Part shown: positions 22,637 through 44,565 of the stretch, piece by piece
How positions within the stretch are numbered: the stretch's first letter is position 1
Layout: the number at the start of each line of letters is the position of its first letter
Origin: Acidobacteriota bacterium
Lineage (GTDB): Bacteria; Acidobacteriota; Vicinamibacteria; Vicinamibacterales; UBA8438
Direction of reading: 5' to 3'
DNA length: 44,565 bases
Assembly: GCA_009861545.1 (NCBI GenBank)
Contig: VXME01000169.1
Span: 2,748-47,312, forward strand
Notes under the pieces: generated by a model
Databases searched by the model: none
The model's input: only the letters and a program-made list of their open reading frames with translations
Told to the model about the DNA's origin: nothing
Made by a program: the position numbers and the translations under genes

Positions 22637-22637
22637 C

Positions 22638-25493
22638 TCAGTTCAGTACAGGCAGCAGAACGTACGCGCCGAGAATGTCGGCCGGCAGCACCGGTTCGAC
22701 GGCTGTGCCGCTCCTGGCACGTGACCTGCCGATGCCGGACGCGTCGCGCACGCGTTCGTGCGCCGCTCGTTGGGCATCCGCACGCTCGGCTGCGATGGCT
22801 TCGAGGCTCGTCTGGAGCGCCGACAAGGCGGGGAGCAGCATATCGAGCTGCTGTTCGATGGCGGTCGGCAACAAGTTGCGCGCAGGCCGCGCCGCCAACA
22901 GACGCTCGGCGTCCGGCGCCGCCAACCAGACCGGTGCTTCCACAGGACCGGTGCACGCCAGCGGAATGATCTCTTCACAGAGCATGGTTCCCTCACCCGA
23001 ACCGCCACGACGCAGGTGATAGCGGAAGCGCACTACCAGCAGGGACGTGCGCACAGACACCTCCCTGGTGACGATCGCCCCGCAACGGGACGCGACGGAC
23101 CCGCCAACGTCAAGGGGCTCCGCATCGAGAGCCTGATCCAGCGTCCAACTCGCAAGGCCTTCGACGACCGGGCTGGTGCGCCCAAGGTGGATCTCGCCTT
23201 CCGCCAGCGGCAGATCGAAACGCCCCGCGAACGGCTCTTCCTGCCCGATCGCCTGACGCAGCGTGCGCGGCGTTTCGCGGCTGACACGGATCTCGATCCG
23301 ACCGTTCATGCGGGCAGGTACGTTCGCCGTGTGCAGCACGGCAGTGAAGAACCGCGCCACATCCTGGCTGCCTCCGATGGCGGCGCGTACGCGCTCAAGC
23401 TCCGCGGCGACCACCTCTGGATGGAGGGTGTGCTGCGCGAAGCGCGAGCGGCTCGCCTTCTCACGGTGGCGGGCGTTCTCCCACTCGGCATGAAGGTTCT
23501 GCTTCTTGGCATCGAGGTCGATATCGTCGATGAAGTCGAGCGGGAGCTGTTGAGCGGTCGCGCCCGTTTGCTCGCGGAACAGGGCGCCCTCGAAGAGCGT
23601 CTCTGCCATCTGCTCCGCCGAAGCCGGCACGGCGACCGCCACCCCCAGATCACTCTTGATGGACTTGTGCTTGCGGATGAGGACGTCGAGAATCACACCG
23701 TCAATAGCGTTGTCGGTCCCGTAGTAGGTCACGACCCGGACCTCGCGTCGACGCTGACCGAAACGGTCCACGCGTCCCTCGCGCTGCTCATGTCGCGTCG
23801 GGTTCCACGCCAGGTCGTAGTGCAGCACCGCGTCGAAATGCTCCTGCAGGTTGATGCCTTCCGACAAGCAGTCCGTACAAACCAGCACGAACAAGCCGCT
23901 GCCATCGGCGAGAGCATCGATACGCGCCTCACGTTCGGCAGGCGGGAGATGGCCAGTGACCGATTCCACTCGGACATCTGCCGACAGCGACTCGCGCAGG
24001 TGGCGCGCGACGTACTCCGCAGTGTCGACGAAGCGACAGAAAACGACGGGATGGAAACCATCCTGGAGAAACGCTCTGACCTCGCGGATCGCGCCCTGGA
24101 GCTTCCGGTCGTCCCGGGGCGCGATCGACCGGGCACGGCGAGCGAAACCGAGCAGTCGGCGACGCGTCGTCTCATGCCCGCCTTCCACGTCGGACCCGGG
24201 ACTGAAGTCGAACCCGACAGCGTCGTCGTCGTCGCTCTGGTCGAGAACGGTGCGGCGGCCCACGTCCTCCAGGTCTTCTTCGTCGGCCTCGTCGACCGCG
24301 GCTCGGCTGCGCAGGGTCGCCGCGGCGGCCTCCGGACTCGACGAGACGCAGCGCAACAGCGCGAGCGCGGACCAATAGCGCACGCGCTGCCGGCGAGGCC
24401 CCCCCTCGACATCGGCCACGTACTCGCGGGCGAACGCACAGATGTCATTGAAGAGCGTTCGGTAAACGGGACTGAACGTGTAGTGCGCTTCCTTGTCTCT
24501 GCGTTCGGGAAACGCCGTGTCGGTCTCAAGGTACCGGCGGATGTCGCCACGACGGCGCTGAACCAGATGGCGCGCAAGTCGGCGGCGAATGCCTTCCCGG
24601 CCGGCCTGATCGAGATCCGCTGGCAGGGCGGCGAAGTCGTCGTCGAGGAGGCTCAGTAGCGAACGGAACGCCTGTTCGTTCCCACTGTGCGGCGTTGCGG
24701 TGACCAGCACCAGATGGCGCTCCGCGTCCGCCGCGAGACGCCGCAGCAGGGCGTGACGCTGCTGCCGGCCGCGGCCGGCGCCGCCAGCGAGCGTGCAACC
24801 GTGGGCCTCGTCCACGATGACGAACTCCGGGCATCTGAGCGCGAAGTCCTCGGCACGCCGGACCGCCTTGATGAAGTCGGTGGAAACCACCGTGAAGGCA
24901 TGCCGATCGAAGACCGAGACGCCGAGGGGAAGATCGCGTTCGAGACGCTGGACCGTGCTCGAGAGAACGAGCTCCGCCTCGACGTGGAACTTCTCCGCGA
25001 ACTCGCGCTGCCACTGCTCGGCCAGATGCGGCGGACAGAGCACCGCGATTCGACGGATCTCGCCCCGATCGAACAGCTCCCGCGCGATGAGACACGCTTC
25101 GATGGTCTTGCCGATGCCGACATCGTCCGCGATGAGCATGCGCACCGGATCGAGCTTGAGCGCCATCATCAGCGGCACGAGCTGATACGGCCGGGGCTCG
25201 ATGGCGATGCGGCCGAAGCTGCGGAAAGGACCGGCGGCCGAGCGGGTCGACAAGCGCGCCGCGTCGCGGAGTAGCTGCCCTCCGGTGAAGTCGCCGAGGT
25301 CCGCCTTGCCGGGCAGTCGGAACGTCGCCGATTCGACCGCCTCGACCGCCGGCAGGACGCCTGTGACCTCCTCGTCGAGCCCGCCCACCGGACGAACGAT
25401 GAGGATCTCGTCCGTCGACTCCGGCAGGACGACCCACTCGCGGCCTCGCGCTTGAACGAGCGTCCCGGGCGTGGAGAGAGAAGCGGTGCTCAT
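22638..25493 (-). CDS. SNF2-family helicase (DrmD-like)
   Basis: This is a 951-residue superfamily 2 translocase starting at ATG 25493 (MSTASLSTPGTLVQARGREW). A frame extended upstream to 25544 looks non-native. It has the SNF2 motifs in order: DDVGIGKT (about 122-129), VDEAHGC (about 226-232), VTATPHSG, then in the second lobe VFCRFVDTAEYVARHL and NPTRHEQREGRVDRFGQ (about 563-580). A helical C-terminal region of about 370 residues follows. SNF2 proteins move along duplex DNA without strand separation; DrmD in class 1 DISARM has this role. The gap to the upstream helicase gene is 77 nt, and the downstream methyltransferase gene starts 1 nt after its stop. Confidence 0.88.
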   Translation of the reverse strand: MSTASLSTPGTLVQARGREWVVLPESTDEILIVRPVGGLDEEVTGVLPAVEAVESATFRLPGKADLGDFTGGQLLRDAARLSTRSAAGPFRSFGRIAIEPRPYQLVPLMMALKLDPVRMLIADDVGIGKTIEACLIARELFDRGEIRRIAVLCPPHLAEQWQREFAEKFHVEAELVLSSTVQRLERDLPLGVSVFDRHAFTVVSTDFIKAVRRAEDFALRCPEFVIVDEAHGCTLAGGAGRGRQQRHALLRRLAADAERHLVLVTATPHSGNEQAFRSLLSLLDDDFAALPADLDQAGREGIRRRLARHLVQRRRGDIRRYLETDTAFPERRDKEAHYTFSPVYRTLFNDICAFAREYVADVEGGPRRQRVRYWSALALLRCVSSSPEAAAATLRSRAAVDEADEEDLEDVGRRTVLDQSDDDDAVGFDFSPGSDVEGGHETTRRRLLGFARRARSIAPRDDRKLQGAIREVRAFLQDGFHPVVFCRFVDTAEYVARHLRESLSADVRVESVTGHLPPAEREARIDALADGSGLFVLVCTDCLSEGINLQEHFDAVLHYDLAWNPTRHEQREGRVDRFGQRRREVRVVTYYGTDNAIDGVILDVLIRKHKSIKSDLGVAVAVPASAEQMAETLFEGALFREQTGATAQQLPLDFIDDIDLDAKKQNLHAEWENARHREKASRSRFAQHTLHPEVVAAELERVRAAIGGSQDVARFFTAVLHTANVPARMNGRIEIRVSRETPRTLRQAIGQEEPFAGRFDLPLAEGEIHLGRTSPVVEGLASWTLDQALDAEPLDVGGSVASRCGAIVTREVSVRTSLLVVRFRYHLRRGGSGEGTMLCEEIIPLACTGPVEAPVWLAAPDAERLLAARPARNLLPTAIEQQLDMLLPALSALQTSLEAIAAERADAQRAAHERVRDASGIGRSRARSGTAVEPVLPADILGAYVLLPVLN

Positions 25494-25570
25494 GCTCCGA
25501 AGGATACAGACCGTTGGTCGCTTTCCGTATCGGAACCTGAGCACCGAAGCTGTAGCGCGGCTACCGACTG

Positions 25571-28500
25571 CTACCGATTCAGCTCATGTACGGGAGCGCC
25601 GAAGACATCGGCATGCTGGCGGAACAGGGCTGGCCAATCGGCTGCGTGGTGAAACCGGAGCACGATGTAGCCGGCCTCGATCAGGCGTCGCGTCGTCGCC
25701 TCATCCGCGCGGACCTGGTCAGGGACATCGTGCGGCGGACCGTCGACGTAAATCGCGGCGTTCGCCTCCCGATAGAAGAAGTCGGGGCGCGTGCGGTACT
25801 GCGGAATGCCGTACTGGGCGTCGCTCGGCAATCGAAGCGCCAGCGAATCCACCATGTCGAGCCACTGGCGTTCGAGGCCGCTGTCGCAGCGATTACGAAG
25901 CGCGACCAAACGCTCCGCCCGCGTGCCGGCGCCGCCCGCCGGCTTGCAATCGGCATGCGAAAGCTCGGCGAGCAGATCCCGAATCAGCGCCCGATCGAGG
26001 TGCCTGTGGTCCGGCTGGTTGCCGTAATCCAGAAGACACTCGTAGCACGCTTTCCCGCACCGATCCACAGCCAGATCCTCGAGTGTGCCCGGGGCGTAGT
26101 GACAGATCTCCAGCGCTTGACGAGCGAGCGCCGGCACCACCGCCGGATCCTCGGCAAGCTGCCGCAGGACACCCGCACCTCCTTCCGACGCCTCGTAGAA
26201 GAGAATCTCCCGCTGGTCGTCCCGTGACGGCATCGCCTCGGCGGCAAGCTCCCGCGGCTCAAGCTGAAAATGCCGCTGGATCGCCTCCTTGAACGCCGCC
26301 TGCAGGCTCATCAGCTCGGGACCGGAACGCGTCGGATCGAAACGCATCACCACAGCGTTCCTCGTGTCCCGGACGAAAGGCACGACGCGCGCAATACGCC
26401 CATCGTTCGCCGCGTCGTCGCGGTCGTCGGCATCCGCCTGGTTGCGGGACCAGTAGCCACGCTCCAGGTCGAGATTGAAGCCGCGCGGCTGGTTTCCACC
26501 CTGGTTCAGCCAGCCGAGGTTGACACGGTAGAGATCGGTGGCATCGGCATAGCTCAGTGTGATTACGCGGGCGCCACCACAGTGGACGTCCGCGTCCCTG
26601 CGGTCGACTTGGCTGCCGACCTCGGGAAAACGGTAGGCGGCCACGAGCTCATAGCCATAACGCCGCCGCTCCTCCTCGTCGCATGTGATGCGCTGGGCGA
26701 GCTTCAGGCTCACGTTCTGCAACTGGACGAGACCATCAATGCAGGATTGCGGATCGAGAGCCGCCCCGCAACGCTCACAGACCTCGCTCAAATGGGTGTC
26801 ACCTGCCTGGAGATGGGCATAGCCGCATCTGCCGCAACGCTTCATCCTGGCGGTGGTGATCTGATGAGAGTCCTCGACGGCGTCCGAGCCGAAGTCGAGA
26901 TTGACCTTGTACACCCTGTACCGCGCCCCCTCGTGGTAGATAAGGGCACGGGGGCCGAACTCGGAGATGGCAAGGAAACGGGGGCGGGAAATGAACTCGT
27001 CACGCCCCTTGCCCTTGCGCCTACCGGGAACATAGGCCGAAATTGGCAGCCGCGGGAAGTTGTACCCGGGCAGGAATCCCTCCGTCGCGAAGTATCGGTA
27101 GGAGTAGAAGTCTCCCTCGTAGACGCCCTCGGCTTCCGTGAGGAGACGAATCTGGCTCTCGGCTTGGGCGCGGAGTCGCCGCGAATGGTTGCGCTCGGCG
27201 TCCGGCCGCGAATGGTCCCCGATGATCGCATGGTGGAGGCCGCGCTGGCGGACGGCCGCTCGGTAGAGAGTACGCCACCGCTCGCACGCGGAGTCGAAAC
27301 TACGTTCGAGCTGGGCAAGCACGTCGTCGGTCCAGCCATCCTGAAACCAAGTCGTCCCCTCGAGCTCGGCCCGGATCTCTTCAACGACCGCATCCGCTCT
27401 CGCCCGCGCCGCACCGCGGTGTATCGGACTGCGCAACTCGTCACCAAGAGCACTCTTTACAGGCAACGGAAGCGCTGCGTCGGTCGCTTCCAGATCCAGG
27501 ATCGCCGTCAGGGTCTTCCCCAGGTCTAGATGCGCGCTTTCCATCCAGATGGCATGAATGTGCGAGCGGACCAGGTCACGGTTCCGCAGATCGATACGGG
27601 GAGGCGCCACCGCTCCGGCGACCATCCTGTTGGGTTCGCGGTAGAAGTACTGATCATGAGGGCTGCGCCCTGCGCAGTACGTGAAAACCAAGGCGGGCTG
27701 TCCGCCACGGCCTGCGCGACCGCTACGCTGCGCGTAATTGGCCGGCGTCGGCGGCACGTTGCGCAGGTTGACGAGGTTGAGCTGGGCGATGTCGACGCCG
27801 AGCTCCATCGTCGGAGAGCAGAAAAGAAGCGGCAGCTTCCCCTCTCGGAAGCGCTCTTCCCGCTCCTGCCGTTCACCGGAGGTCACCTGGGCCGTATGCT
27901 CCCGCGCTTCAAGAGCACATTCCAGGTCCACGAACCTGCAATAGCATTCCGCGAAGTACCGGTTCACTTCCGCCGGACGCCCGCCTTCGTCAAGAACGCG
28001 GATGCGGTCGGGCGCGCCCTGGCCGTCCCCGACCAACCATCGAAGAGCACCGGCGTTGAGCTGATAGCCTGGATCATCACCCCCGGATGCTGTTCGCACC
28101 TGTTCGACGATACCGTAGCGCTTCAGCGCAAGAAACAGGAACCGGATGATCTCGTCGATGTCCACACCGCGAAGAGTCCGATCCGAAGCCCGACACTCAA
28201 GGAGCCGGCGCTTCACGTATTGGCCGTAGGCCCCGCGGGATGAGACGAAGAAATCAGCCCGGTCACCTCGGCTCTGGGGACGAGGCCAAGCGATACGGGC
28301 ACTGGTCAAGTCCCGTTCGTCATCGAGGTGCCAGACCGTGTCTTCGAGGAGACGGGGTTTCGTCTGCTCGACCAGATCATGGCGCTTCTCAGAATCGAGG
28401 ACGTCAACCTTGACGGCGAGCGCCCGCCGCAGCTCGTCGAGCAGCGTACGGACGATCTCCTCACGCACATCCGCAGTCGCCAAGCGAAGCTCTGCGGGCA

Positions 28501-30856
28501 CTTCGATGGAGGTTTCGCTTCCGCGATGTCCAGATACGGAGAATCCCGTCTCCCACAACGTCGTCTCGCCGAGCAGCCCATCGTGCCCGGCGAGCCCTTC
28601 GTACTCGAACCGCAACAAGCCGCAATCTTCGAGGTTGGGCGCCGTCACCCGCCAGCCCCGTTCGAGGTCGCGATAGAGAAAGTACTCGAGAACGCGCCGC
28701 AAGGCGTCCCGGGTATGCTGCCGCGCCGGACCGCGAACTGCCGGGTCCGCTGCGTAGTCCTCAAAGCGGGGCTTCATCGCGTCAAGCACGCAACGCGACA
28801 AATCGCCATGCCCAAGCCCCTGCAGTCCTGCCTGCCGGCACGCGGCGTACAACGCAGACCGCAGCAAAGCCACCTGTACGAAATCGTTGAAGTGACCGGC
28901 CTGCAGAGAAGCGTCCTGACGGTTGTCGGTGAAACTCAGCAACTTGCGCGCTTCAGGGCTCAGACTCCGTTCCCGCTGCAACGTAATGAGCGACCGTACC
29001 GCGAGGATTGTCGTTGCAGTGCTCCGGCTGTCCACACCGAGCGTGGCCAGCTTGAAACGCTCGGAACGCTGGGTCCTGGTGTAGGTGACTCCGCACGACG
29101 GTTCCAGGCAGAAGAGAAAGTTCCGGTAAAGCAGAGCCGCCGGCACACCTTCGCCCTCTGGGACGATTCGCCCGGAAGGGGCGACGAACACCGGCTCCGG
29201 AACGTCCTGGCGGGCGTTAGAACGGATCCGTTCCTCCCCCGCGGTGGTCGTCTCCTTGAGAGAGTCCGGCAAGCGACTGAGCAGCTCACAGCCAGCGGCC
29301 CGAGGCCAGGGCGCTTCCTTGGAGAGATGCAGGTACGCTTCACGCATCCCATCGTCCACCTGTTCCCGACGGTCCTCGCGGGGCAGCAACCTCCTGTCAT
29401 CTTCATCCGCCGCGACCCAGACCCGGTAGTAGGCGGTTCCGCAACGGCGACAGAACACGAGCGGGAACAGCGGCTTGTCCGGTTCGCCCGGCTTCGCCGC
29501 CTTCTTCGCGATCTCCAGATGGCGGTCCGCTTCGGGTTCGAGCGATGCCCAGACCGTATCGCCACGCGTCAGAAACTGATGCAACCGGAACGCGAAGATG
29601 GAAAAGCGGCTGGAGTCGTCTCGCAGGCTGGAACCCCAAAGCAGCCAGCGGCGGAGCGCTTCCGCGCAACGTTCAGGATCGGACTCCACCAACGCCGCAA
29701 GCTCCGCAGCCGCGCTCGGTACGTCTCCGATCGGATCCCCCTCCAAGCGCCGCGGCGTCTGCCTGAGCAACCTGCCAGTGTCCGGTTCCTCACGCACTCC
29801 GAAAGTCGATTCGATCCAGGAGGCGAGAGGGTGCATGCAGAACGTCCCATACTCGACCGGCGGTTCTTCATCCGAAACGACGGCGGCCCGAATGGCGGCC
29901 CGAATCAAGGGATCCGCCAACTCAATCTCCGGGGTAGCCCGCTCCAAACTCTCGGTGACCACCTGCTCAGGCGCAATCGGCACACCGAACAGGGTCTGCG
30001 ACACTCCCGCTACTTCGCGGCGCTGCTCCTCGCTGCCACCTCCACTGGCCATCGTGGCGGAAGTCCCGATACAGACGACGCTGTTGCCCACCGCGTGGCG
30101 GCAGCGGCGGATCAGCATCGCGATGTCAGCTCCCTGACGGCCCCGGTACGTATGCAACTCGTCGAAGACGAGAAACCTGAGACCCTGCGCTGCTCTCAGC
30201 AGCTCACGGTCTTCGGTTCGCGTGAGCAGCAACTCGAGCATCATGTAGTTCGTCAGGAGGATGTCCGGCGGGTCGCTTCGGATGGCTTCGCGGGCGGGGC
30301 CTCGTTCCTGCCCCGTATAGCGCGCGAACCGGACCGGTGACCGGCCTTCCGCGTAGCCCTTGTCGACGAACTTGCCGAGCTCCTCGTCCTGGCTGTTTGC
30401 CAGGGCGTTCATGGGATAGACGATGATGGCCTGGACCCCCCGGCCGGATCCGCGTCGGAGCACGTGGTCCACGATCGGCACTATGTAGGCGAGGCTCTTG
30501 CCGGAACCGGTGCCGGTCGTCAGTACGTACGACCGACCCTTGGCGGCCTCCAGAATCGCGTCGCGCTGGTGCCGGTGCAGGAGAAGCTGCTTGCCGCGGT
30601 GATCCGTATCAGACTTGCCGATCCGGAAGACCCGTGAGCATTCCTCGTGAAGGACTCCCTCCGCCACCAGATCATCGATCGTGCCGCCGGGCTTGAACGT
30701 CGGGTTCAGTTGCAGCAGCGGTTGCGGCCAGAAGCCCTCTCCAGCGAGGTGGCTGTCCACAAACTGCCTGATGCGACGGTCGCCGATCTTGATGAAGCTG
30801 CGGGTATAGTCCCGATAGTCAGAGACCAGACGGTTCCTGAGATCAAAAACATCCAT
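25571..30856 (-). CDS. giant DUF1998 helicase with C-terminal nuclease-like domain
   Basis: The ATG at 30856 (MDVFDLRNRLVSDYRDYTRS) gives 1761 residues; a TTG two codons upstream is an alternative. The helicase core has TGTGSGKS (about 113-120), a DELH box (about 231-234), CIGTSATM and QRSGRAGRGG (about 1041-1050). A zinc ribbon (CGRCGYA...CERCGAA) lies near 1340-1365. DUF1998 follows, with its Cys cluster DRCGKACYECLLDYGNQ near 1595-1611. The last 110 residues look like a Vsr/DUF559-type PD-(D/E)XK domain: SGLERQW, RPDFFY, IYVDGPPHD, and GYIVLRFHH. The architecture combines DrmA and DrmB of DISARM in one chain and resembles DruE of Druantia in size. It is the first gene of the operon. Confidence 0.86.
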   Translation of the reverse strand: MDVFDLRNRLVSDYRDYTRSFIKIGDRRIRQFVDSHLAGEGFWPQPLLQLNPTFKPGGTIDDLVAEGVLHEECSRVFRIGKSDTDHRGKQLLLHRHQRDAILEAAKGRSYVLTTGTGSGKSLAYIVPIVDHVLRRGSGRGVQAIIVYPMNALANSQDEELGKFVDKGYAEGRSPVRFARYTGQERGPAREAIRSDPPDILLTNYMMLELLLTRTEDRELLRAAQGLRFLVFDELHTYRGRQGADIAMLIRRCRHAVGNSVVCIGTSATMASGGGSEEQRREVAGVSQTLFGVPIAPEQVVTESLERATPEIELADPLIRAAIRAAVVSDEEPPVEYGTFCMHPLASWIESTFGVREEPDTGRLLRQTPRRLEGDPIGDVPSAAAELAALVESDPERCAEALRRWLLWGSSLRDDSSRFSIFAFRLHQFLTRGDTVWASLEPEADRHLEIAKKAAKPGEPDKPLFPLVFCRRCGTAYYRVWVAADEDDRRLLPREDRREQVDDGMREAYLHLSKEAPWPRAAGCELLSRLPDSLKETTTAGEERIRSNARQDVPEPVFVAPSGRIVPEGEGVPAALLYRNFLFCLEPSCGVTYTRTQRSERFKLATLGVDSRSTATTILAVRSLITLQRERSLSPEARKLLSFTDNRQDASLQAGHFNDFVQVALLRSALYAACRQAGLQGLGHGDLSRCVLDAMKPRFEDYAADPAVRGPARQHTRDALRRVLEYFLYRDLERGWRVTAPNLEDCGLLRFEYEGLAGHDGLLGETTLWETGFSVSGHRGSETSIEVPAELRLATADVREEIVRTLLDELRRALAVKVDVLDSEKRHDLVEQTKPRLLEDTVWHLDDERDLTSARIAWPRPQSRGDRADFFVSSRGAYGQYVKRRLLECRASDRTLRGVDIDEIIRFLFLALKRYGIVEQVRTASGGDDPGYQLNAGALRWLVGDGQGAPDRIRVLDEGGRPAEVNRYFAECYCRFVDLECALEAREHTAQVTSGERQEREERFREGKLPLLFCSPTMELGVDIAQLNLVNLRNVPPTPANYAQRSGRAGRGGQPALVFTYCAGRSPHDQYFYREPNRMVAGAVAPPRIDLRNRDLVRSHIHAIWMESAHLDLGKTLTAILDLEATDAALPLPVKSALGDELRSPIHRGAARARADAVVEEIRAELEGTTWFQDGWTDDVLAQLERSFDSACERWRTLYRAAVRQRGLHHAIIGDHSRPDAERNHSRRLRAQAESQIRLLTEAEGVYEGDFYSYRYFATEGFLPGYNFPRLPISAYVPGRRKGKGRDEFISRPRFLAISEFGPRALIYHEGARYRVYKVNLDFGSDAVEDSHQITTARMKRCGRCGYAHLQAGDTHLSEVCERCGAALDPQSCIDGLVQLQNVSLKLAQRITCDEEERRRYGYELVAAYRFPEVGSQVDRRDADVHCGGARVITLSYADATDLYRVNLGWLNQGGNQPRGFNLDLERGYWSRNQADADDRDDAANDGRIARVVPFVRDTRNAVVMRFDPTRSGPELMSLQAAFKEAIQRHFQLEPRELAAEAMPSRDDQREILFYEASEGGAGVLRQLAEDPAVVPALARQALEICHYAPGTLEDLAVDRCGKACYECLLDYGNQPDHRHLDRALIRDLLAELSHADCKPAGGAGTRAERLVALRNRCDSGLERQWLDMVDSLALRLPSDAQYGIPQYRTRPDFFYREANAAIYVDGPPHDVPDQVRADEATTRRLIEAGYIVLRFHHAADWPALFRQHADVFGAPVHELNR

Positions 30857-30967
30857 GACCAATCGCGACGCTCGTTTGCACCCGCGGGCGCAACACGGTC
30901 AACACAGATATGGCCGACCACCGAGCCCTACGGACTGAAGGCACCGCGTAGCTTCGTCCACTCACGA
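30857..30967 (-). promoter_or_regulatory. upstream region of the defence operon
   Basis: The short gap between the operon start and the Rpn pseudogene must hold the operon promoter, unless transcription reads through. On the minus strand TTGACC occurs, but no good -10 lies at 16-18 nt. No operator palindrome is evident. Confidence 0.25.
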
Positions 30968-35900: not shown

Positions 35901-37294
35901 CACGCGTTCTTTTCACGCACCTGTCGGAAGCGCCTGTTTCGTCATGGTCGGTTGTAGGGCAAGGCGCCGTCCTCGCCCGGCGCTCGGCCGCTCCGCTGTC
36001 GCCCTCGCCTTCGATGCAACGTCCGTCCGCGCAGATCAGTTCGCCCGGCCAGGGTCCGAGCGACGTGGACGCGATGCGATCGCTCTTTGTGTGCCTGCTG
36101 GACGCCTGCCGTGCCGAGTGGCCGAGGACCATCGCGGCGAAGTCCGCGCGGCCCACGGCTCGCTGTGGTCCACATCCGGCGGCGAACCCTCAACTGAAAC
36201 AACCCGCACAAGCGCTCTCACTCGAGTGACGGGGTTGAGTTCGGTCCACCAGCTCCCGACCCGCGTTGATTTGCGGCTTTGCGGCGGCAGCAGAGTTGGC
36301 GAAGTCGGCAAGGTCAGCGGTGGCCGTCTGATCCGCCGCGTCCTCGCCGCACACCGCGACGGGAATGGAGTTCGGTGCGGACTCCCGCGTTTGCCGCGAA
36401 GTCCAGGTTTCCTGAAGGAAAGTGGAAAGGACGGCGTCGTCGTACTCATTTCCATGTGCAATCGACGCCCGGATTGTGGTGGACCCGACTGGACGATTGT
36501 TCCGTGGAAGGAGTCGTCGCGTCGCCATCCATGCGGAGCAGGAACTGCGGCATGTCCTCCACGCGATTCGGGGTGGGGTCGTTCTGGCGAGTCGGCGCCT
36601 GCGGCCAGTCGTTGTTGTGACCTCGTGTGTGGCGGGTACTGGGGGAGGTCGTCGAGTGCGCCTGCGCGCCTGATTGGCGGTCTCGACCGCGAGGTCGAGC
36701 GTCGTCGCCGACCCGCACAACGATGTCGTCCTGGCGCGCGATCGTCAGATATGGACGAAGATGAAGCCGCTGAACCGGCCCCAATGCCCCCGAGGATGGT
36801 CTGGTTTTGCACGATGGTCACATGGTCGCCGAATGATGACCCCCGGGCTGGGATGAGCGTCTTTGCACGACTGGTCGGCGAGTCGCTTGAGCCGACGCTG
36901 CTCGGCCCAGGGTGCGTTCTGCGCCTGCTCCGGGCCCTGATCGTTCTGCGCCTCGGTCGAGTCCAACCAGTAAGTGGCCCGCAGGTAGTCCAGACGTCGT
37001 AGCGGCGGTGACCGCTGGCGCGCGACACGCAGGCTCTGCCGCGCGACGGAGTGGCAGCCCATCGGCCGCCTGCTGCGGAGAACGCTCGCATCACGGTCGT
37101 CGACAAAATCACCCCGCTACCCGAAAAAACCGCAAACCCTATCAATTTGGGTAGCGCAAGGACGCGTGCACCTGCGCTAGGATGCGCCGCAAGGTGGGGA
37201 CTGCCCCGCGGTACGAAGACGGGAAGTACGGCCGTGCCCGGGGCGATTGGAACCGGCTCGATGGGGAGTAGGTTCAGCGGTCTTGGCGTCCGGT
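35901..37294. other. 1.4-kb region without a confident gene
   Basis: Several long overlapping frames exist on both strands but their translations are Arg/Ser/Pro/Thr-rich and none has a ribosome binding site. A minus-strand frame at 36745-37062 (RLDYLRATYWLDSTEAQND in its middle) is the least random-looking. I suspect decayed coding sequence but cannot name it. Confidence 0.45.
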
Positions 37295-37328
37295 TTTGCT
37301 CGCGATAACTGCCGTTATCGCGAGCAAA
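37295..37328. repeat. lox-like site, left
   Basis: Arm TTTGCTCGCGATA, spacer ACTGCCGT, arm TATCGCGAGCAAA. The length and 13-8-13 layout equal those of loxP, and the arms end in ATA/TAT next to the spacer, as in loxP. The only asymmetry is the TGCC core, which sets orientation. Confidence 0.85.
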
Positions 37329-37355
37329 GTGCATCTCCACACCAAAACGGACCCC

Positions 37356-37361
37356 ATTCTA
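37356..37361 (-). promoter_or_regulatory. weak -10-like box inside the segment, pointing outward
   Basis: On the minus strand TAGAAT lies 27 bp inside the left lox-like site, directed at that site. After inversion it would point at the right-hand site and the surface-protein gene. No convincing -35 is present, so this is only a candidate. Confidence 0.15.
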
Positions 37362-37506
37362 CAACGCTTGCCGAACGCGATCCACAAGCCGGCGGCCTCG
37401 GGCGCAACTTGCTGACACCGCTTGAGTTCTTCGGAATGCGCCGCGTCCGACCGGCGTGACGACCGCCTCCGGCCGGGGCGGCATCGGAGTGGGACGCGCT
37501 CACATT

Positions 37507-37524
37507 TTTACTCGCGATAACTGC
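37507..37524. repeat. degenerate half lox-like site
   Basis: TTTACTCGCGATA differs from the full-site arm at one base and is followed by ACTGC, the first part of the spacer, but no second arm follows. It may be the trace of an older third site. Confidence 0.7.
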
Positions 37525-37624
37525 ACGCCGAGCGTCCGTGACGGACCCTCGAACGGCAGGCACACGTCCCCGCCCGGCCGCCGCCGCTGGCGGCTTCACG
37601 GCCCTCGACCCACGACCGCCTTGC

Positions 37625-38608
37625 TCAGCGCTGCTGCCGCTCGGCCAACTGCGCGGCGCCGCTGCGCCTCGCTAGCAGCCTCTCCCCGTAGCGCTGGACC
37701 ATGCGCGCGCTCTTCCAGCGCCCCGACTGGAGGATCGCCGGCAACTCGATGCCGCAGGCGATCATGTCCTGGACCGCCCCGACGCGCGTGCTGTGCCCGG
37801 CCAGCGTGTCCGCGATGTCGTCGGGCAGGCCCGCCCGCCGGGCCATCCGCTTGTAGATGCGCGGCACTTGGCTGGCGTCGAGCTTCTCGCCGATCTTGCC
37901 ATCCTTGCGGACCGAACGGAAGAGCCGTGCCGTGCCGACGCCGCTGCGGTCGAGCCATGCCTTGACCATCTGCACGGTGTCCCGCGCCAAGTAGAGCATC
38001 GCGCCCCTAGCGTCCTGGTCGGTCTTGCCCGAGCGCACGAGCAGCGTAGCCGTCCCGTCGATATCCTCCAATAGATCAGTCACTTCCAGCGACACCAGCT
38101 CGGCGCGCCGCAGCAGCGTGTCGTAGCCCACGGCCAGCAGCGCGCGGTCCCGGACGTCGATCAGCCGGTCTCCCGCGGCCTCCAGCAGCCGGTTCCGCAG
38201 CGGCCAGGTCAGGCCCTGGACCTGCGCCTGCCGGCGCCCCCGGTGCCGGTGCATCCGCTGCAGCGCGAAGCGGACCGAGGCACTGTCGAGCGGGTTCGGC
38301 TGCCGCAGCGCCTTGTGCAGGGCGGCGATGCTCGACACGTAGCGGCGCACGGTGGCTGGCGTCTTGACGTGCGCCATCTCGTCGACGAAGGCGGTCACCG
38401 TGTCGGGGCTGGCGGGGAACGCCGGCAGGAAATGTCGTCGGCACCACGCCTCGAACACCTGCATGTCGGCGCGCAGTGCGCGCTCCGTGTTGCGGCTGAA
38501 CGCGCCGCTGGCCGCCTCGAAGTAGGCGGCCAGCGGCTCACCCGCTGCCGCGTGTTGATCGTCGTGGAACGAGCGCTCGAACTCCAACGTCGCGTGCGAA
38601 CCCAGCAT
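37625..38608 (-). CDS. Cre-like tyrosine recombinase
   Basis: This 327-residue recombinase has the full catalytic set: R167 in YDTLLRRAEL, K195 in RSGKTD, H272 and R275 in GHSTRVGAVQDM, W298 in SGRWKS and Y307 in MVQRYGE. Several segments match P1 Cre closely in form: NTLLRIAEI, LFCRVRKNG and GHSARVGAARDM in Cre against DTLLRRAEL, LFRSVRKDG and GHSTRVGAVQDM here. The length (Cre 343) and the N-terminal AWC segment agree as well. GGGAGG precedes the ATG at 38608. It lies between two inverted 34-bp sites of lox layout, which are its likely substrates. It was probably acquired from a phage or plasmid. The general family is certain; true Cre-like grouping needs a tree. Confidence 0.88.
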   Translation of the reverse strand: MLGSHATLEFERSFHDDQHAAAGEPLAAYFEAASGAFSRNTERALRADMQVFEAWCRRHFLPAFPASPDTVTAFVDEMAHVKTPATVRRYVSSIAALHKALRQPNPLDSASVRFALQRMHRHRGRRQAQVQGLTWPLRNRLLEAAGDRLIDVRDRALLAVGYDTLLRRAELVSLEVTDLLEDIDGTATLLVRSGKTDQDARGAMLYLARDTVQMVKAWLDRSGVGTARLFRSVRKDGKIGEKLDASQVPRIYKRMARRAGLPDDIADTLAGHSTRVGAVQDMIACGIELPAILQSGRWKSARMVQRYGERLLARRSGAAQLAERQQR

Positions 38609-38645
38609 CTGGCGGCCTCCCGATCAGTCGCAAAGACCGGGATTT

Positions 38646-38679
38646 TTTGCTCGCGATAACGGCAGTTATCGCGAGCAAA
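38646..38679. repeat. lox-like site, right (inverted)
   Basis: Arm TTTGCTCGCGATA, spacer ACGGCAGT, arm TATCGCGAGCAAA: the exact reverse complement of the left site over all 34 bases; the match extends one further base on each side as a palindrome (38645-38680). It lies between the recombinase start and the surface-protein gene, so it may also act as an operator for either. Confidence 0.85.
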
Positions 38680-38839
38680 ACCTCGTTGCGAAGGCGAGCC
38701 TGTTGGGCTGTCGCTCAAGTACCCGAAAGCGGTGACGGCGCCGTGTTCCGCGGGGTGGGTGTCAGCTGGGAGAAACGCCATGTCTCACGCGCGATCGTCG
38801 GTGAAGCCGGCCGTGCCGGTTCGAGGGAAGGAGCAGTGG

Positions 38840-41800
38840 ATGCCGAGAATCACGAGAGGTCGGGGGGCAAGTGGCACGAGTCTTGCGCCGGCAGCCCAAT
38901 TGCTGCATCCCTCCACAGGGCGGCTCTCGCTAGACCCTGACTACCGCGCAGCTGACGACATTGGCGCGTCAAGCGGTTCGCGGGAGCGCGATCTGGATCT
39001 GAGGCGCGGACTCCGCTGTTCGGTCGCGGTGGCCTGTACCTCTTCTCCTCCCGGAACATTGCGACGACTTGCTCGCGCGTGGAGGGCGCCAGCGGGCCCG
39101 CTCGCCCTCGCCCTCGCCCTACTGCCGGGCGCCGGGACCGTTGCGGCACAAGGCACATTGCCGACGTTGAGCGTGTCCGATGCGCAGGACTACGAGGACG
39201 CAACGTGGATGATATTCGAGGTGTCGCTGTCGGCGGCGAGCGCTGACACGGTGACGGTCGACGTTGAAACGTCAGATGGGACTGCCACGGACGGGCCGGA
39301 TTACAGGTTCGAACCGCTGACGCTGACCTTTCCTCCGGGCAACAGGTCGCAGCGCGTGGCTGTGCGGGTGATTGACGACGAGGCGGTCGAGTCGGACGAG
39401 ACCTTCACGGTGACGTTGACGAATCCGACGGGGGCCACGCTGGGCGATGCGACGGCGACCGGCACGATCAAGAACGACGACACTGCGGCGACGCTCACCG
39501 CGAGCGACATCGGGGACACGACGGCTACGCTGACCATCGGCAGCCACACGGACGGTTGGTGGTACCGGGGCCAGAACTTGGGAACCAGGCAGTGGAGTAG
39601 CTGCACCGCAGTCACCGCCGGCACGACGGTGGTTAGCATCACCGGTCTCACGCCAGCAACAGGCTACCTCTACAGGGCGTACAGCGATAGCACATGCAAC
39701 ACTAGACTGGCCAGGGTTGAGTTCAGGACCATTGCGTCAGCGGGCACGCCGACAGTGAGCGTGTCCGATGGGCGGCTGGACTCCGAGGACGACGTGTGGA
39801 TGACGTTCGAGGTGTGGCTGTCGGCGTCGAGCCGTGAGACGGTGACGGTCGACTATGCCACATCGGATGGGACGGCCGCGAGCGGGACGGATTACAGGGC
39901 CGAGTCGGGGACGCTGACCTTTGCTCCGAACGGCGCTGGGGTGGGGGTGGTGAATGTGTTGGTGTATGACGACGAGGATCTCGAGCCGGACGAGACCCTC
40001 ACGGTGACGTTGACGAATCCGACGAAAGCCACGCTGGGCGATGCGACGGCGACCGGCACGATCAGGAACGACGACACTGCGGCGACGCTCACTGCGAGCG
40101 ACATCGGGGAGACGACGGCGACGCTGACCATCAGCAGCCACACGGGCGGTTGGTATTACCGGGGCCAGGACTTGGGAACCGACCAGTGGAGTAGCTGCAC
40201 CCTAGTCGCCGCCGGCACGACGGCAGTTGACATCACCGGTCTCAAGCCAGCAACGCCCTACGACTACTGGGCGTACCGCGATAGCACGTGCAACACCCAT
40301 GACAAATTGGCCAGGGTTCAGTTCCGGACCATTGCGTCAGCGGGCACGCCGACAGTGAGCGTGTCCGATGCGCGGGGATACGAGGACGAAACGTGGATGT
40401 CGTTCGAGGTGTCGCTGTCGGCGGGGAGCCGTGACCAGGTGACGGTGAAGTATGCCACGTCGAGTGAGTCGAGTGATACGGCCACGAGCGGGACGGATTT
40501 CAAGGCGAAGTCGGGGACGCTGACCTTTCCTAAGAACAGCACGAGCCCGCAGCGCGTGAGTGTGCAGGTGATTGACGACGAGGATCTCGAGTCGGACGAG
40601 ACCTTCACGGTGACGCTGACGAGTCCGGCGGGGGCCACGCTAGGAGATTCGACGGCGACCGGGACTATCAGGAACGACGAAGCGAAGCCCGCCAGCGAGA
40701 TGATGGCGCAGGCCGCAACGCGGACGACGGTCGACCTGGCGTGGAGGCTGCCCGAACAACCCCGTGGGGTAACCGTGCGCGCGGTTGGTGTGCAACGGCA
40801 GGAGGCGGATGAGTCCTGGCGCACGGAGGCGACGCTTGCCGCCGACGCGGTGTCGCACACCGTGACCGGGCTGAGCGCCGGGACGGCCTACAGCTTCCGC
40901 ACCCGGCTCGCGACGAACAAGGGGAACGCGGATTCGGAACCCGTGTCTGCGACCACGCTGACTACCGCGGCCGCCCTCACGGCGTCGTTCCACGACGTGC
41001 CGGCCGAGCACGACGGCAGCCGGCTGTTCAGCTTCGAGATCCGGTTCAGCGAGGAATTCGAGGGGCTGAGGCTGACGGCCCTCGAGGCCGGGGCACTCAC
41101 TGTGCAGGGCGGGCGCCTGGTGGACGTCAAGCGCACCACGCGGGGGCAGAACCGCAGCGTGACGGCCAGGGTGCGTCCGGCCTCGTCGGGGGACGTGGCC
41201 ATGTCGCTGGTGGCGACGACGGACTGCGCGGCCAGTACCGCGATCTGCACGCGGGACGGGCGCATGCTGTCGAACTCGCCCTCGGCGACGGTGTCGGGAC
41301 CGAACACGGCGGCGACCGGCGCACCGACCATCACCGGCGAGGCGCGGGTGGGCGAGACCCTGACGGCGTCTACCGCGGGCATCGAGGACGCGGACGGGCT
41401 GCACGGCGCGGCGTTCGCGTTCCAGTGGGTGTCGGTCGACGGCGGCGCGGAGACCGACATCGCTGGCGCGACGGGTGCGAGCTACGTGCTCGCGGACTCG
41501 GACGCGGGCTCGGCGGTCAAGGTGCGGGTGAGCTTCACCGACGACGCCGGCCACGACGAGGAGCTGACCAGCGCCGCGACGGCGACGGTGGCGCCGCGGC
41601 CGCTGACGGCGGCGTTCCACGGCATGCCGCTCGGGCACGACGGCAGCCGGCTGTTCAGCTTCGAGATCCGGTTCAGCGAGGAATTCGAGGGGCTGAGGCT
41701 GACGGCCCTCGAGGCCGGGGCACTCACTGTGCAGGGCGGGCGCCTGGTGGACGTCAAGCGCACCACGCGGGGGCAGAACCGCAGCGTGACGGCCAGGGTG

Positions 41801-44565
41801 CGTCCGGCCTCGTCGGGGGACGTGGCCATGTCGCTGGTGGCGACGACGGACTGCGCGGCCAGTACTGCGATCTGCACGGCAGACGGGCGGAAGCTGTCGA
41901 ACTCGCCCTCGGTGACGGTGTCGGGACCGGGAGCGTCGAACACGGCGGCGACAGGCGCACCGACGATCACGGGCGAGGCGCGGGTGGGCGAGACGCTGAC
42001 GGCGTCTACCGCGGACATCGAGGACGCCGACGGGCTGAGCGGCGCATCGTTCGCGTTCCAGTGGGTGTCGGTCGACGGCGGGGCGGACACGGACATCGCC
42101 GGCGCGACGGGCTCGAGCTACACGCTCGCGGACTCGGACGCGGGCTCGGCGATCAAGGTGCGGGTCAGCTTCACCGACGACGCCGGCAACAGCGAGGAGC
42201 TAACCAGCGCCGCGACGGCGACGGTGGCGGCGCGGCCGAATTCGCCAGCCACCGGCGCACCCGCCATCAGCGGCACGGCGCAGGCGGGCGAGACGCTGAC
42301 GGCGTCGACGAGCGGCATCTCGGACGCGGACGGGCTCAGCAGCGCGACGTTCGCGCTGCAGTGGGTGTCGAGCGCCGACGGTTCGGACACGGACATCGCC
42401 GGCGCGACCGGTTCGAGCTACACGCTCGCCGATTCGGACGTGGGCTCGGCGATCAAGGTTCGGGCGAGCTTCACCGACGACGCCGGCCACGACGAGGAGC
42501 TGACCAGTGCCGCGACGGCGACGGTGGAGCCGCGGCCGCTGACGGCGGAGTTTCAGGGGATGCCGGCCGAACACGACGGGCGGCGCTTGTTCTCGTTCGA
42601 GCTGGTGTTCAGCGAGAACTTCCCGGGGCGGTTCCCGCACACGACGCTCAGGGACAGCGCGTTCACGGTGACCAACGGCAGCGTGCGCGCGGCCGAGCGT
42701 GTGGTCAAGGGCGAGAACCGGCGCTGGAAGATCGGCGTGCGCCCGTCGTCGAACGACGACGTGACGATCACGCTGCCGGCGAGGTCGGTGTCGACCGAGT
42801 CGGGCCGGCCGCTGTCGAACAGCCCGTCGGGGCGGGTGGCCGGCCCGGTGGGCATCTCGGTGGCCGACGCGCGAGTGGAGGAAGGCGCCGGCGCGGTGCT
42901 GTCCTTCGCGGTCACGCTGAGCCGTGCGGCCACGAGCGCGTTGACGGTCGACTACACCACCTCCGACGGCAGCGCGCTGGCCGGCGAGGACTACACGGCG
43001 GCGAGCGGGACGCTCTCGTTCCAGACGGGCGAGACGTCGGGAACCATCGAGGTGGCGGTGCTCGACGACGCGCACGATGAGGGCGAGGAGACGCTGACGC
43101 TGACGCTGTCCAATCCGTCGGGGGCGGTGGTAACCGACGGCGAGGCGACCGGGACGATCGAGAACGCGGACCTGATGCCGGCGGCGCTTTTGGCGCGCAT
43201 CGGGCGGGCGACGGCCGAGCAGGTGGTTACCCACATCGAGGAGCGGATGGCGGCGCCGCGTCAGCGGGGCTTCCGAGCGCGGGTCGCGGGCCGGGAGCTG
43301 CAGCCGGGCGGCGAGCGGGACTTCGCGCTCGGCTTCCTGTCGTCGTTCGCGCCGATGGGCATGGGTCCGGTGGGGGCGGCCCCGATGGGCGGCGCCGTGA
43401 TGGGCGGCTCGGCGATGGGTGCAGCCCCGATGGCGATGGGCTCGCACTCGGCCGGGGCCGGCGTCGGCCTCGCCGGCGCGGGCACGGCCGGCATGGGCGG
43501 CGCGATGAGCATGACCGGCATGAGCGGCGCTGCGACAGCCATGGGCGGCATGAGCGGCGGCGCGATGGGCGCGACGGGCCGGCATGCGCCGCTGGGCAGC
43601 CCGTCGGCGATGGCCGGCTACGGGCCGGCGGGCGCCGCGCACGGCGGCGGCCTGTTCGGTTCGATGTTGGGCTATGACCCGCTGTCGAGCTCCGAGTTCG
43701 AGCTGAACCGCGAGAGCCGCGGCGGCATCCTGTCGCTGTGGAGCCGCAGCTCGCGGTCGCACTTCAGCGGCATGGAAGACGCGCTGTCGCTCAACGGCGA
43801 CGTGCGCACGACGATGCTCGGGGCCGACTACGCCCGCGGCTCGCTGACGGTCGGCCTGTCGGTCGGCCGCACCCTCGGGCTGGGCGGCTACAGCGGCCCG
43901 AGCAGCGGGCAGATGACGACGTCGATGACCGGGTTCTACCCGTGGGTGGGCTACCAGGTCAACGACAAGGTCTCGGTGTGGGGGGTGACCGGTTACGGCG
44001 CGGGGACGCTGAGCCTGACGCCGGGCAGCGCCGCTGCGCTGGAGACGGGCGTGTCGATGGCGATGACGGCGGCAGGGACGCGGGGCGAGCTGATTGGGTC
44101 GCGGGCCACCGGCGGGTTCGGGCTGGCGTTCAAGGCCGACGCGATGTGGGTCGGCGCGGCCAGCGACCTGCTCGACGGCCCGAGGGGCCGGCTGAACGCG
44201 TCGGAGGCCGGGGTGACGCGCGTGCGCACGGCGCTGGAGGGGTCGCGCGGCTTCACGCTCGGCGGCGGCCGGGTGTCGCTGACCCCGAGCGTCGAGGTCG
44301 GCCTGCGGCGCGACGGCGGCGACGCCGAGACCGGCGCGGGCATGGACGTCGGCGGCGGCCTCGCCTTCACCGATACAGTCACGGGGCTGTCGCTGGACCT
44401 GCGGGTGCGGACGCTGGTCGTGCACCAGGCCGAAGGGTTCAGCGACCGGGGGATGTCGCTGTCGTTCGGGTGGGACCCGACGCCGTCGAGCCCGCTGGGC
44501 CTGACCGCGAAGGTGGCCCCGTCGTGGGGCGGGCAGGCGCGGGGCGGGGCCGAGGCCCTGTGGGG
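38840..44565 (+). CDS. giant Calx-beta/Ig-like repeat protein with C-terminal beta barrel, 3' partial
   Basis: One frame stays open from 38840 to the window end (1908 codons). ATG 38840 has AAGGAG upstream. A signal-like segment (PLALALALLPGAGTVAAQG) lies about 90-104 residues in, so GTG 39029 or TTG 39059 may be the real start. Domains in order: Calx-beta 39167-39480, a linker module, Calx-beta 39755-40075, the same module, Calx-beta 40355-40675, an FnIII-like domain (40725-40965), two near-identical modules (from 41008 and 41635) with Ig-like repeats to 42530, another module, Calx-beta 42850-43170, a Met/Gly/Ala-rich linker (43330-43600) and barrel-like strands to the end (SLWSRSSRSHFSGMEDALSL, MLGADYARGSLTVGLSVGR), as in autotransporters. 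It is probably a secreted, surface-held adhesin. Confidence 0.85.
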   Translation, partial: MPRITRGRGASGTSLAPAAQLLHPSTGRLSLDPDYRAADDIGASSGSRERDLDLRRGLRCSVAVACTSSPPGTLRRLARAWRAPAGPLALALALLPGAGTVAAQGTLPTLSVSDAQDYEDATWMIFEVSLSAASADTVTVDVETSDGTATDGPDYRFEPLTLTFPPGNRSQRVAVRVIDDEAVESDETFTVTLTNPTGATLGDATATGTIKNDDTAATLTASDIGDTTATLTIGSHTDGWWYRGQNLGTRQWSSCTAVTAGTTVVSITGLTPATGYLYRAYSDSTCNTRLARVEFRTIASAGTPTVSVSDGRLDSEDDVWMTFEVWLSASSRETVTVDYATSDGTAASGTDYRAESGTLTFAPNGAGVGVVNVLVYDDEDLEPDETLTVTLTNPTKATLGDATATGTIRNDDTAATLTASDIGETTATLTISSHTGGWYYRGQDLGTDQWSSCTLVAAGTTAVDITGLKPATPYDYWAYRDSTCNTHDKLARVQFRTIASAGTPTVSVSDARGYEDETWMSFEVSLSAGSRDQVTVKYATSSESSDTATSGTDFKAKSGTLTFPKNSTSPQRVSVQVIDDEDLESDETFTVTLTSPAGATLGDSTATGTIRNDEAKPASEMMAQAATRTTVDLAWRLPEQPRGVTVRAVGVQRQEADESWRTEATLAADAVSHTVTGLSAGTAYSFRTRLATNKGNADSEPVSATTLTTAAALTASFHDVPAEHDGSRLFSFEIRFSEEFEGLRLTALEAGALTVQGGRLVDVKRTTRGQNRSVTARVRPASSGDVAMSLVATTDCAASTAICTRDGRMLSNSPSATVSGPNTAATGAPTITGEARVGETLTASTAGIEDADGLHGAAFAFQWVSVDGGAETDIAGATGASYVLADSDAGSAVKVRVSFTDDAGHDEELTSAATATVAPRPLTAAFHGMPLGHDGSRLFSFEIRFSEEFEGLRLTALEAGALTVQGGRLVDVKRTTRGQNRSVTARVRPASSGDVAMSLVATTDCAASTAICTADGRKLSNSPSVTVSGPGASNTAATGAPTITGEARVGETLTASTADIEDADGLSGASFAFQWVSVDGGADTDIAGATGSSYTLADSDAGSAIKVRVSFTDDAGNSEELTSAATATVAARPNSPATGAPAISGTAQAGETLTASTSGISDADGLSSATFALQWVSSADGSDTDIAGATGSSYTLADSDVGSAIKVRASFTDDAGHDEELTSAATATVEPRPLTAEFQGMPAEHDGRRLFSFELVFSENFPGRFPHTTLRDSAFTVTNGSVRAAERVVKGENRRWKIGVRPSSNDDVTITLPARSVSTESGRPLSNSPSGRVAGPVGISVADARVEEGAGAVLSFAVTLSRAATSALTVDYTTSDGSALAGEDYTAASGTLSFQTGETSGTIEVAVLDDAHDEGEETLTLTLSNPSGAVVTDGEATGTIENADLMPAALLARIGRATAEQVVTHIEERMAAPRQRGFRARVAGRELQPGGERDFALGFLSSFAPMGMGPVGAAPMGGAVMGGSAMGAAPMAMGSHSAGAGVGLAGAGTAGMGGAMSMTGMSGAATAMGGMSGGAMGATGRHAPLGSPSAMAGYGPAGAAHGGGLFGSMLGYDPLSSSEFELNRESRGGILSLWSRSSRSHFSGMEDALSLNGDVRTTMLGADYARGSLTVGLSVGRTLGLGGYSGPSSGQMTTSMTGFYPWVGYQVNDKVSVWGVTGYGAGTLSLTPGSAAALETGVSMAMTAAGTRGELIGSRATGGFGLAFKADAMWVGAASDLLDGPRGRLNASEAGVTRVRTALEGSRGFTLGGGRVSLTPSVEVGLRRDGGDAETGAGMDVGGGLAFTDTVTGLSLDLRVRTLVVHQAEGFSDRGMSLSFGWDPTPSSPLGLTAKVAPSWGGQARGGAEALW
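41008..41250. repeat. long direct repeat, copy 1
   Basis: About 243 bp are repeated at 41635-41877 (offset 627 bp) with a single visible difference (accgcg against actgcg near the end). Such identity at silent positions means recent duplication or gene conversion within the surface-protein gene. Confidence 0.9.
41635..41877. repeat. long direct repeat, copy 2
   Basis: This is the partner of 41008-41250. The unit is 627 bp (209 codons), in frame, so unequal recombination would add or remove a whole module without breaking the gene. Confidence 0.9.

Follow-up and report, generated by a model that had tools for sequence, protein, structure and literature searches.

The locus described here raises the question of whether a DNA segment placed just upstream of the gene for a giant surface protein can be inverted by a recombinase that it encodes itself, and whether such an inversion would decide if the surface protein is made. 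It lies in a stretch of 44,565 nucleotides from an Acidobacteriota bacterium, hereafter the window, to which coordinates refer unless another locus is named. In our preferred reading, which we consider probable, the segment is a self-contained Hin-like invertible-promoter switch assembled from Cre/lox parts and is now in its OFF state.

The surface-protein gene and the segment beside it

The gene in question (38780-44563, + strand) encodes an exported Calx-beta/fn3 repeat protein (Calx-beta E 1.1e-68, fn3 E 9.9e-8) with a hydrophobic signal-like stretch at the N-terminus (..LALALALLPGAGTVAAQG), and it is cut by the contig end, so that the product has at least 1,900 residues. An earlier note had placed the start at the ATG at 38840, about 160 bp from the nearer of the two recombination sites described below, and although the distance is right (158 bp), the choice of start codon is probably not, since an earlier in-frame ATG at 38780, about 98 bp past that site and with a Shine-Dalgarno sequence of its own, opens a peptide resembling that of the related locus L089/L004 and is therefore the likelier start.

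The predicted invertible segment, with recombinase gene and putative promoter, spans 37292-38682 (1391 bp) and is bounded by a far lox-like site at 37292-37328 and a near one, on the side of the surface gene, at 38646-38682. The two are exact reverse complements across 37 nt, and a search of the 6.35-Mb genome allowing up to three mismatches found just these two copies. Each site is furthermore palindromic in itself, with 13-bp arms (TTTGCTCGCGATA) flanking an 8-bp spacer, and thereby has the layout of a 34-bp lox-like site, loxP being likewise arranged as 13-8-13. On the + strand the spacer reads ACTGCCGT at the far site and its reverse complement ACGGCAGT at the near site, and the pair is therefore inverted and not direct. 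Inverted recombination sites bounding a short stretch are one of the features expected of an invertible-promoter phase switch. An extra lox-like half-site is found within the segment at 37506-37525, about 100 bp past the recombinase stop, and a comparable one occurs in L029 at about 2165, some 110 bp past the stop. The sites were also considered as intrinsic terminators, a candidate rejected by the sequence, in which A and not T follows the stems.

The gene between the sites (37625-38608, - strand) encodes a Cre-type tyrosine recombinase of 327 aa, is divergent from the Calx-beta gene and starts 37 bp from the near site, a gap (38609-38645) that the earlier note had given correctly. The protein matches the Pfam family Phage_integrase (E 1.1e-16), NCBIfam returned XerC/XerD only and below threshold, and in a phmmer search of PDB sequences every strong match was Cre or the Cre-derived Tre (best E 1.7e-27, residues 33-316). 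Its identity to the Cre protein of phage P1 and to Dre of D6 is 28-29%; the similarity to Cre spans the core-binding and catalytic domains, and in the alignment with Cre the full catalytic set R-K-H-R-W-Y is kept (R167, K195, H272, R275, W298 and Y307) together with the equivalent of E176. A Hin-type serine invertase is ruled out, the catalytic domain being that of a tyrosine recombinase by both Pfam and PDB matches.

Recurrence of the layout in related loci

Twelve further loci, with recombinases 55-76% identical to that of the window, were found in Acidobacteriota, Gemmatimonadota and a Bryobacterales MAG. Group 1 (67-76% identity) comprises L097/L029, L089/L004, L090/L030, L091/L032, L092/L031 and L093/L033, from MAGs labelled Acidobacteria, Gemmatimonadetes, BD2-11 and Bryobacterales, and group 2 (55-58% identity in the alignment) comprises L082-L087, found in genomes related to a Gemmatimonadota genome. 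In L089/L004 the contig ends inside the gene, and both ends are thus available in 12 of the 13 loci, the window included. Inverted lox-like sites flank the recombinase in all 12, the arrangement of the window being repeated in 11 of 11 relatives, and the segments measure 1140-1390 bp (1391 bp in the window). The recombinases of the relatives are intact and have all catalytic residues.

The site arms vary widely between loci (CTCGCGATA, GGTTGATA, TCCCGATA and GCTCTCGATT), and the paired spacers are identical in 10 of 12, with one mismatch in L086 and two in L097. Over nine 8-mers this amounts to three mismatches against 25 expected, and no alternative assignment of far to near spacers is as good (exact p = 1/5040 for seven distinct 8-bp pairs), in tests that count related loci as independent. 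Agreement of the spacers within a locus is what recombination between both sites would demand. Spacers of 9 bp are found in L082, L083 and L085, and one of 8 bp in L084, a locus of the same genome as L082 and L083; the difference in length could be a way to hold these switches apart.

The neighbouring gene recurs as well. In 10 of the 13 loci a gene for an exported protein lies directly beside the near site and divergent from the recombinase, and wherever domains are readable these proteins are of the beta-sandwich kind (Calx-beta, fn3, SWM repeat, cadherin-like); the neighbours of L083 and L097 are cut by contig ends to an N-terminus, in which no domain was found. An exported beta-sandwich repeat gene follows after a gap of about 0.4 kb in L087 and comes second, behind a gene for a hexapeptide-repeat protein, in L086. 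In L092 its place is taken by a gene for a di-haem peroxidase lipoprotein. An inverted pair together with a surface-type neighbour is present in 12 of 13 loci versus 0 of 14 with more distant Cre-like genes (Fisher 7e-7, by a lenient count of loci that are not independent), and since the loci share ancestry this p-value is only descriptive. The comparison set consists of four plasmid loci, which have no inverted lox pair and at most one palindrome near the gene, two loci in the genome G1117 (44-46% identity), likewise lacking such a pair on their flanks, and eight loci from Gemmatimonadota relatives (L110-L117), which have neither an inverted pair nor a giant neighbour; an exported neighbour of the kind described is missing from the plasmid and G1117 loci as well. 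Relatives of the recombinase in phages and plasmids were distant only and without an inverted lox pair, and none were found in the viral contigs searched.

The putative promoter and the present orientation

The note had drawn attention to a TAGAAT pointing outward at the far end of the segment, and this is indeed present on the - strand (37361-37356) as the -10 element of a putative outward promoter, TGGATC-17-TAGAAT (37356-37384, - strand), whose -10 hexamer stops 27 bp short of the far site. Of random 210-bp stretches taken from the window, 1.3% attain its score of 9.9 (shuffle p 0.06), and a strict consensus scan gave no promoter match in the element. By alignment, far-end elements are in register across the window and L090-L093 (TTGACA-17-TCCGAT in L090, TTGACG-18-TCAAAT in L091, TTGACG-17-TAGGAT in L092 and TTGACG-17-TACAAT in L093), L097 being a poorer fit, and the element is strong in L093 and L092 but weak in the window. 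Those of group 2 are weaker, with 17-bp spacing and 11-18 bp from the site, and the combined shuffle p for an outward far-end promoter, 3e-5 over 12 loci and 3e-4 in group 1, is to be read with several best matches of group 2 straddling the site.

As the segment now lies, with the 5' end of the recombinase gene closest to the surface gene, promoters directed at the latter did not, by contrast with the outward ones, rise above shuffled sequence (combined p 0.37). The earlier note had named a surface-gene promoter lying wholly within 38680-38840 and working equally in both orientations as the observation that would refute a switch; between 38683 and 38839 the best score in a scan for sigma-70-type promoters was 1.9, below the median of 3.7 for random stretches, and in seven relatives (L090, L091, L093 and L082-L085) the near site is no more than about 23-40 bp away from the start codon. 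A sigma-70 promoter can hardly be accommodated there, so that transcripts of the gene must begin inside the segment or cross it.

We infer from these features a mechanism in which the Cre-type recombinase is active, the far-end promoter is used, switching is reversible and the protein has the role of a surface protein. The segment would hold both the recombinase and, at its far end, a promoter pointing outward, and recombination between the two inverted lox-like sites would flip 37292-38682. In the sequenced orientation the promoter would face away and the surface gene would be OFF, and in the flipped one TAGAAT would come to lie at a distance of 27 bp from the site and of about 160 bp from the ATG at 38780, upstream of both, so that the promoter would read across the site into the Calx-beta/fn3 gene and turn it ON in that cell. 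Inversion may in addition, as the note had proposed, part the recombinase gene from a promoter of its own.

The notion of a phase switch, as it had been put forward earlier, is thus upheld as regards the inverted pair, the cognate recombinase, the surface neighbour and the outward far-end element, all of which recur in relatives, but the promoter of the window is weak and the same orientation is found in 13 of 13 loci. No flipped locus was found in a wider sampling of the order and phylum of the window and of the relatives and phylum of the Gemmatimonadota MAG. The assemblies run uninterrupted across both sites, an indication that a single orientation prevailed in each sample, and free 50:50 switching would not yield 13 of 13 loci in one orientation; from both observations it follows that switching is rare, biased or lost. 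The last of these would make the segment a locked or vestigial switch, which inverted in the past but has since become fixed, in most lineages, in a single orientation, and the spacer mismatches in L097 and L086 as well as G347, where only a broken recombinase remnant is found, are in agreement with this. We nevertheless regard it as unlikely, since the sites of the window are perfect, the spacers match in 10 of 12 loci and the recombinases retain an intact catalytic set.

It might alternatively be the present orientation that is functional, the outward promoter driving a gene in the far flank and the surface gene not being the target at all. Such a reading would account for the orientation common to all loci, and a candidate target exists in L084-L087, where a gene for a GAF-type sensor kinase lies past the far site in the same direction, in L084 and L087 with the full domain set of a hybrid kinase (GAF-PAS-histidine kinase-receiver-OmpR-type DNA-binding). 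In group 1 the far flank holds a block conserved in the four relatives L090-L093, which 37245-37291 of the window resembles in an alignment. The kinase is however missing beside the group 1 loci and L082/L083, the common neighbour is the surface gene, and in the seven relatives mentioned above that gene has no room for a promoter of its own, which makes a far-flank target quite improbable. The conserved block just outside the far site contains neither a gene nor an Rfam family, a search of five loci against Rfam giving no RNA family, and a conserved RNA in the far-end transcripts was rejected as a candidate (folding z -1.1 to -1.6), since the fold is mostly the site hairpin. Near both segment ends of group 2 there are furthermore repeated TTGTGA/TCGTGA boxes, which could be binding sites of the hybrid kinase.

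The unit of site, recombinase and site could also be mainly a mobile cassette or a maintenance module of plasmids or ICEs, serving dimer resolution and carrying its surface cargo incidentally. It is distributed across phyla, the recombinases of L092 (Bryobacterales) and L093 (Gemmatimonadetes) being nearest neighbours in the tree, the closest plasmid relatives resemble plasmid resolvases, and in L090 the surface gene is followed by genes for an AlpA-type regulator and for conjugation (TraG-like ATPase, TrbI), to which L091 has homologous ORFs. It is accordingly fair to suppose that the unit has spread horizontally on conjugative elements, but resolution requires direct repeats of one site, and neither single nor direct sites but an inverted pair encloses the gene in the window, whereas the plasmid loci have a single palindrome at most. 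Inverted sites lead to inversion, and with the type and side of the neighbour constant in addition we hold maintenance as the main function to be highly improbable. A chance repeat without function, finally, is hardly credible, given a 37-nt perfect inverted repeat that recurs in relatives with covarying spacers.

Known switches and wider meaning

The favoured reading, an invertible-promoter switch, has much in common with the flagellar switch of Salmonella, in which the serine invertase Hin acts on hix sites with the aid of an enhancer. Here as there, the recombinase gene lies within the invertible segment, inverted sites are found at both ends, an outward promoter (putative in the window) lies at the far end and a surface structure is the target (by prediction in the window), but the enzyme is a tyrosine recombinase of the Cre kind and the sites are lox-like. 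The Hin/hix switch is mentioned in PMC9368917. The parts resemble those of P1 Cre/loxP and D6 Dre/rox, to whose enzymes the recombinase is similar over most of its length, with all catalytic residues retained; the 13-8-13 site is shared with P1, and a site near the recombinase start with both. In P1 and D6 a single site serves for circularisation or dimer resolution, whereas two inverted sites enclose the gene here.

The promoter switches fimS, hyxS and ipuS of E. coli, which depend on tyrosine recombinases, likewise control a surface adhesin by inversion of a promoter element, as is proposed here, but their recombinases are of the Fim type and encoded outside a small element, that of the window being of the Cre type and inside the segment. 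In Clostridioides difficile the recombinase RecV is not encoded within the cwpV segment, again unlike the window recombinase, and inversion acts after the start of transcription. Of these switches, ipuS acts on a LuxR regulator and on the autotransporter adhesin UpaE (PMC6083910), and CwpV is, according to PMC2784873, a large surface protein that is phase-variable through DNA inversion, which is also what we propose for the Calx-beta/fn3 protein. In the open-access literature we found no report of a Cre-type phase switch or of DNA inversion in sponge symbionts.

The MAG names resemble those of sponge-microbiome bins, and the bacteria may come from such a habitat. A part in host contact is ascribed to proteins with Calx-beta and fn3 domains, and both domains are among the eukaryote-like ones enriched in sponge microbiomes (PMC9531527). 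If the ON/OFF switch is real, a single bacterial population would confront its host or phages with a mixture of surfaces, and the loci would provide a number of new Cre/lox-like pairs that differ in their sites. It is conceivable, and we advance it tentatively, that a Cre-type recombinase lineage, spread across phyla in part by conjugative elements, has been recruited as a flip switch dedicated to the giant, animal-like adhesion proteins of marine bacteria that live in association with hosts, and that a second variant inverts a signal peptide instead of a promoter. Candidates for this variant are found in the genome G101, where each of two more distant Cre-like genes, at L094 (5661-7426, G101:C57) and L095 (4246-5944, G101:C7), has on one side a giant repeat ORF lacking a signal peptide and on the other a short lipoprotein start in the opposite orientation. 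Inversion in silico at the shared 17-bp inverted repeat yields in-frame fusions of 2411 aa and at least 1598 aa, respectively, and part of the 17-bp match may reflect protein similarity, since the repeat sits in coding repeats. Similar giant ORFs without signal peptide are found beside a Cre-like gene in L120 and L123.

Elsewhere in the window, 15526-30862 contains large genes matching defence families, namely a DruE-like helicase with an MZB domain, a DpdE-like helicase (E 1e-239), a DrmMI/type IIG methyltransferase-like gene and an LmuB-like ATPase gene, and this region is possibly a composite defence island.
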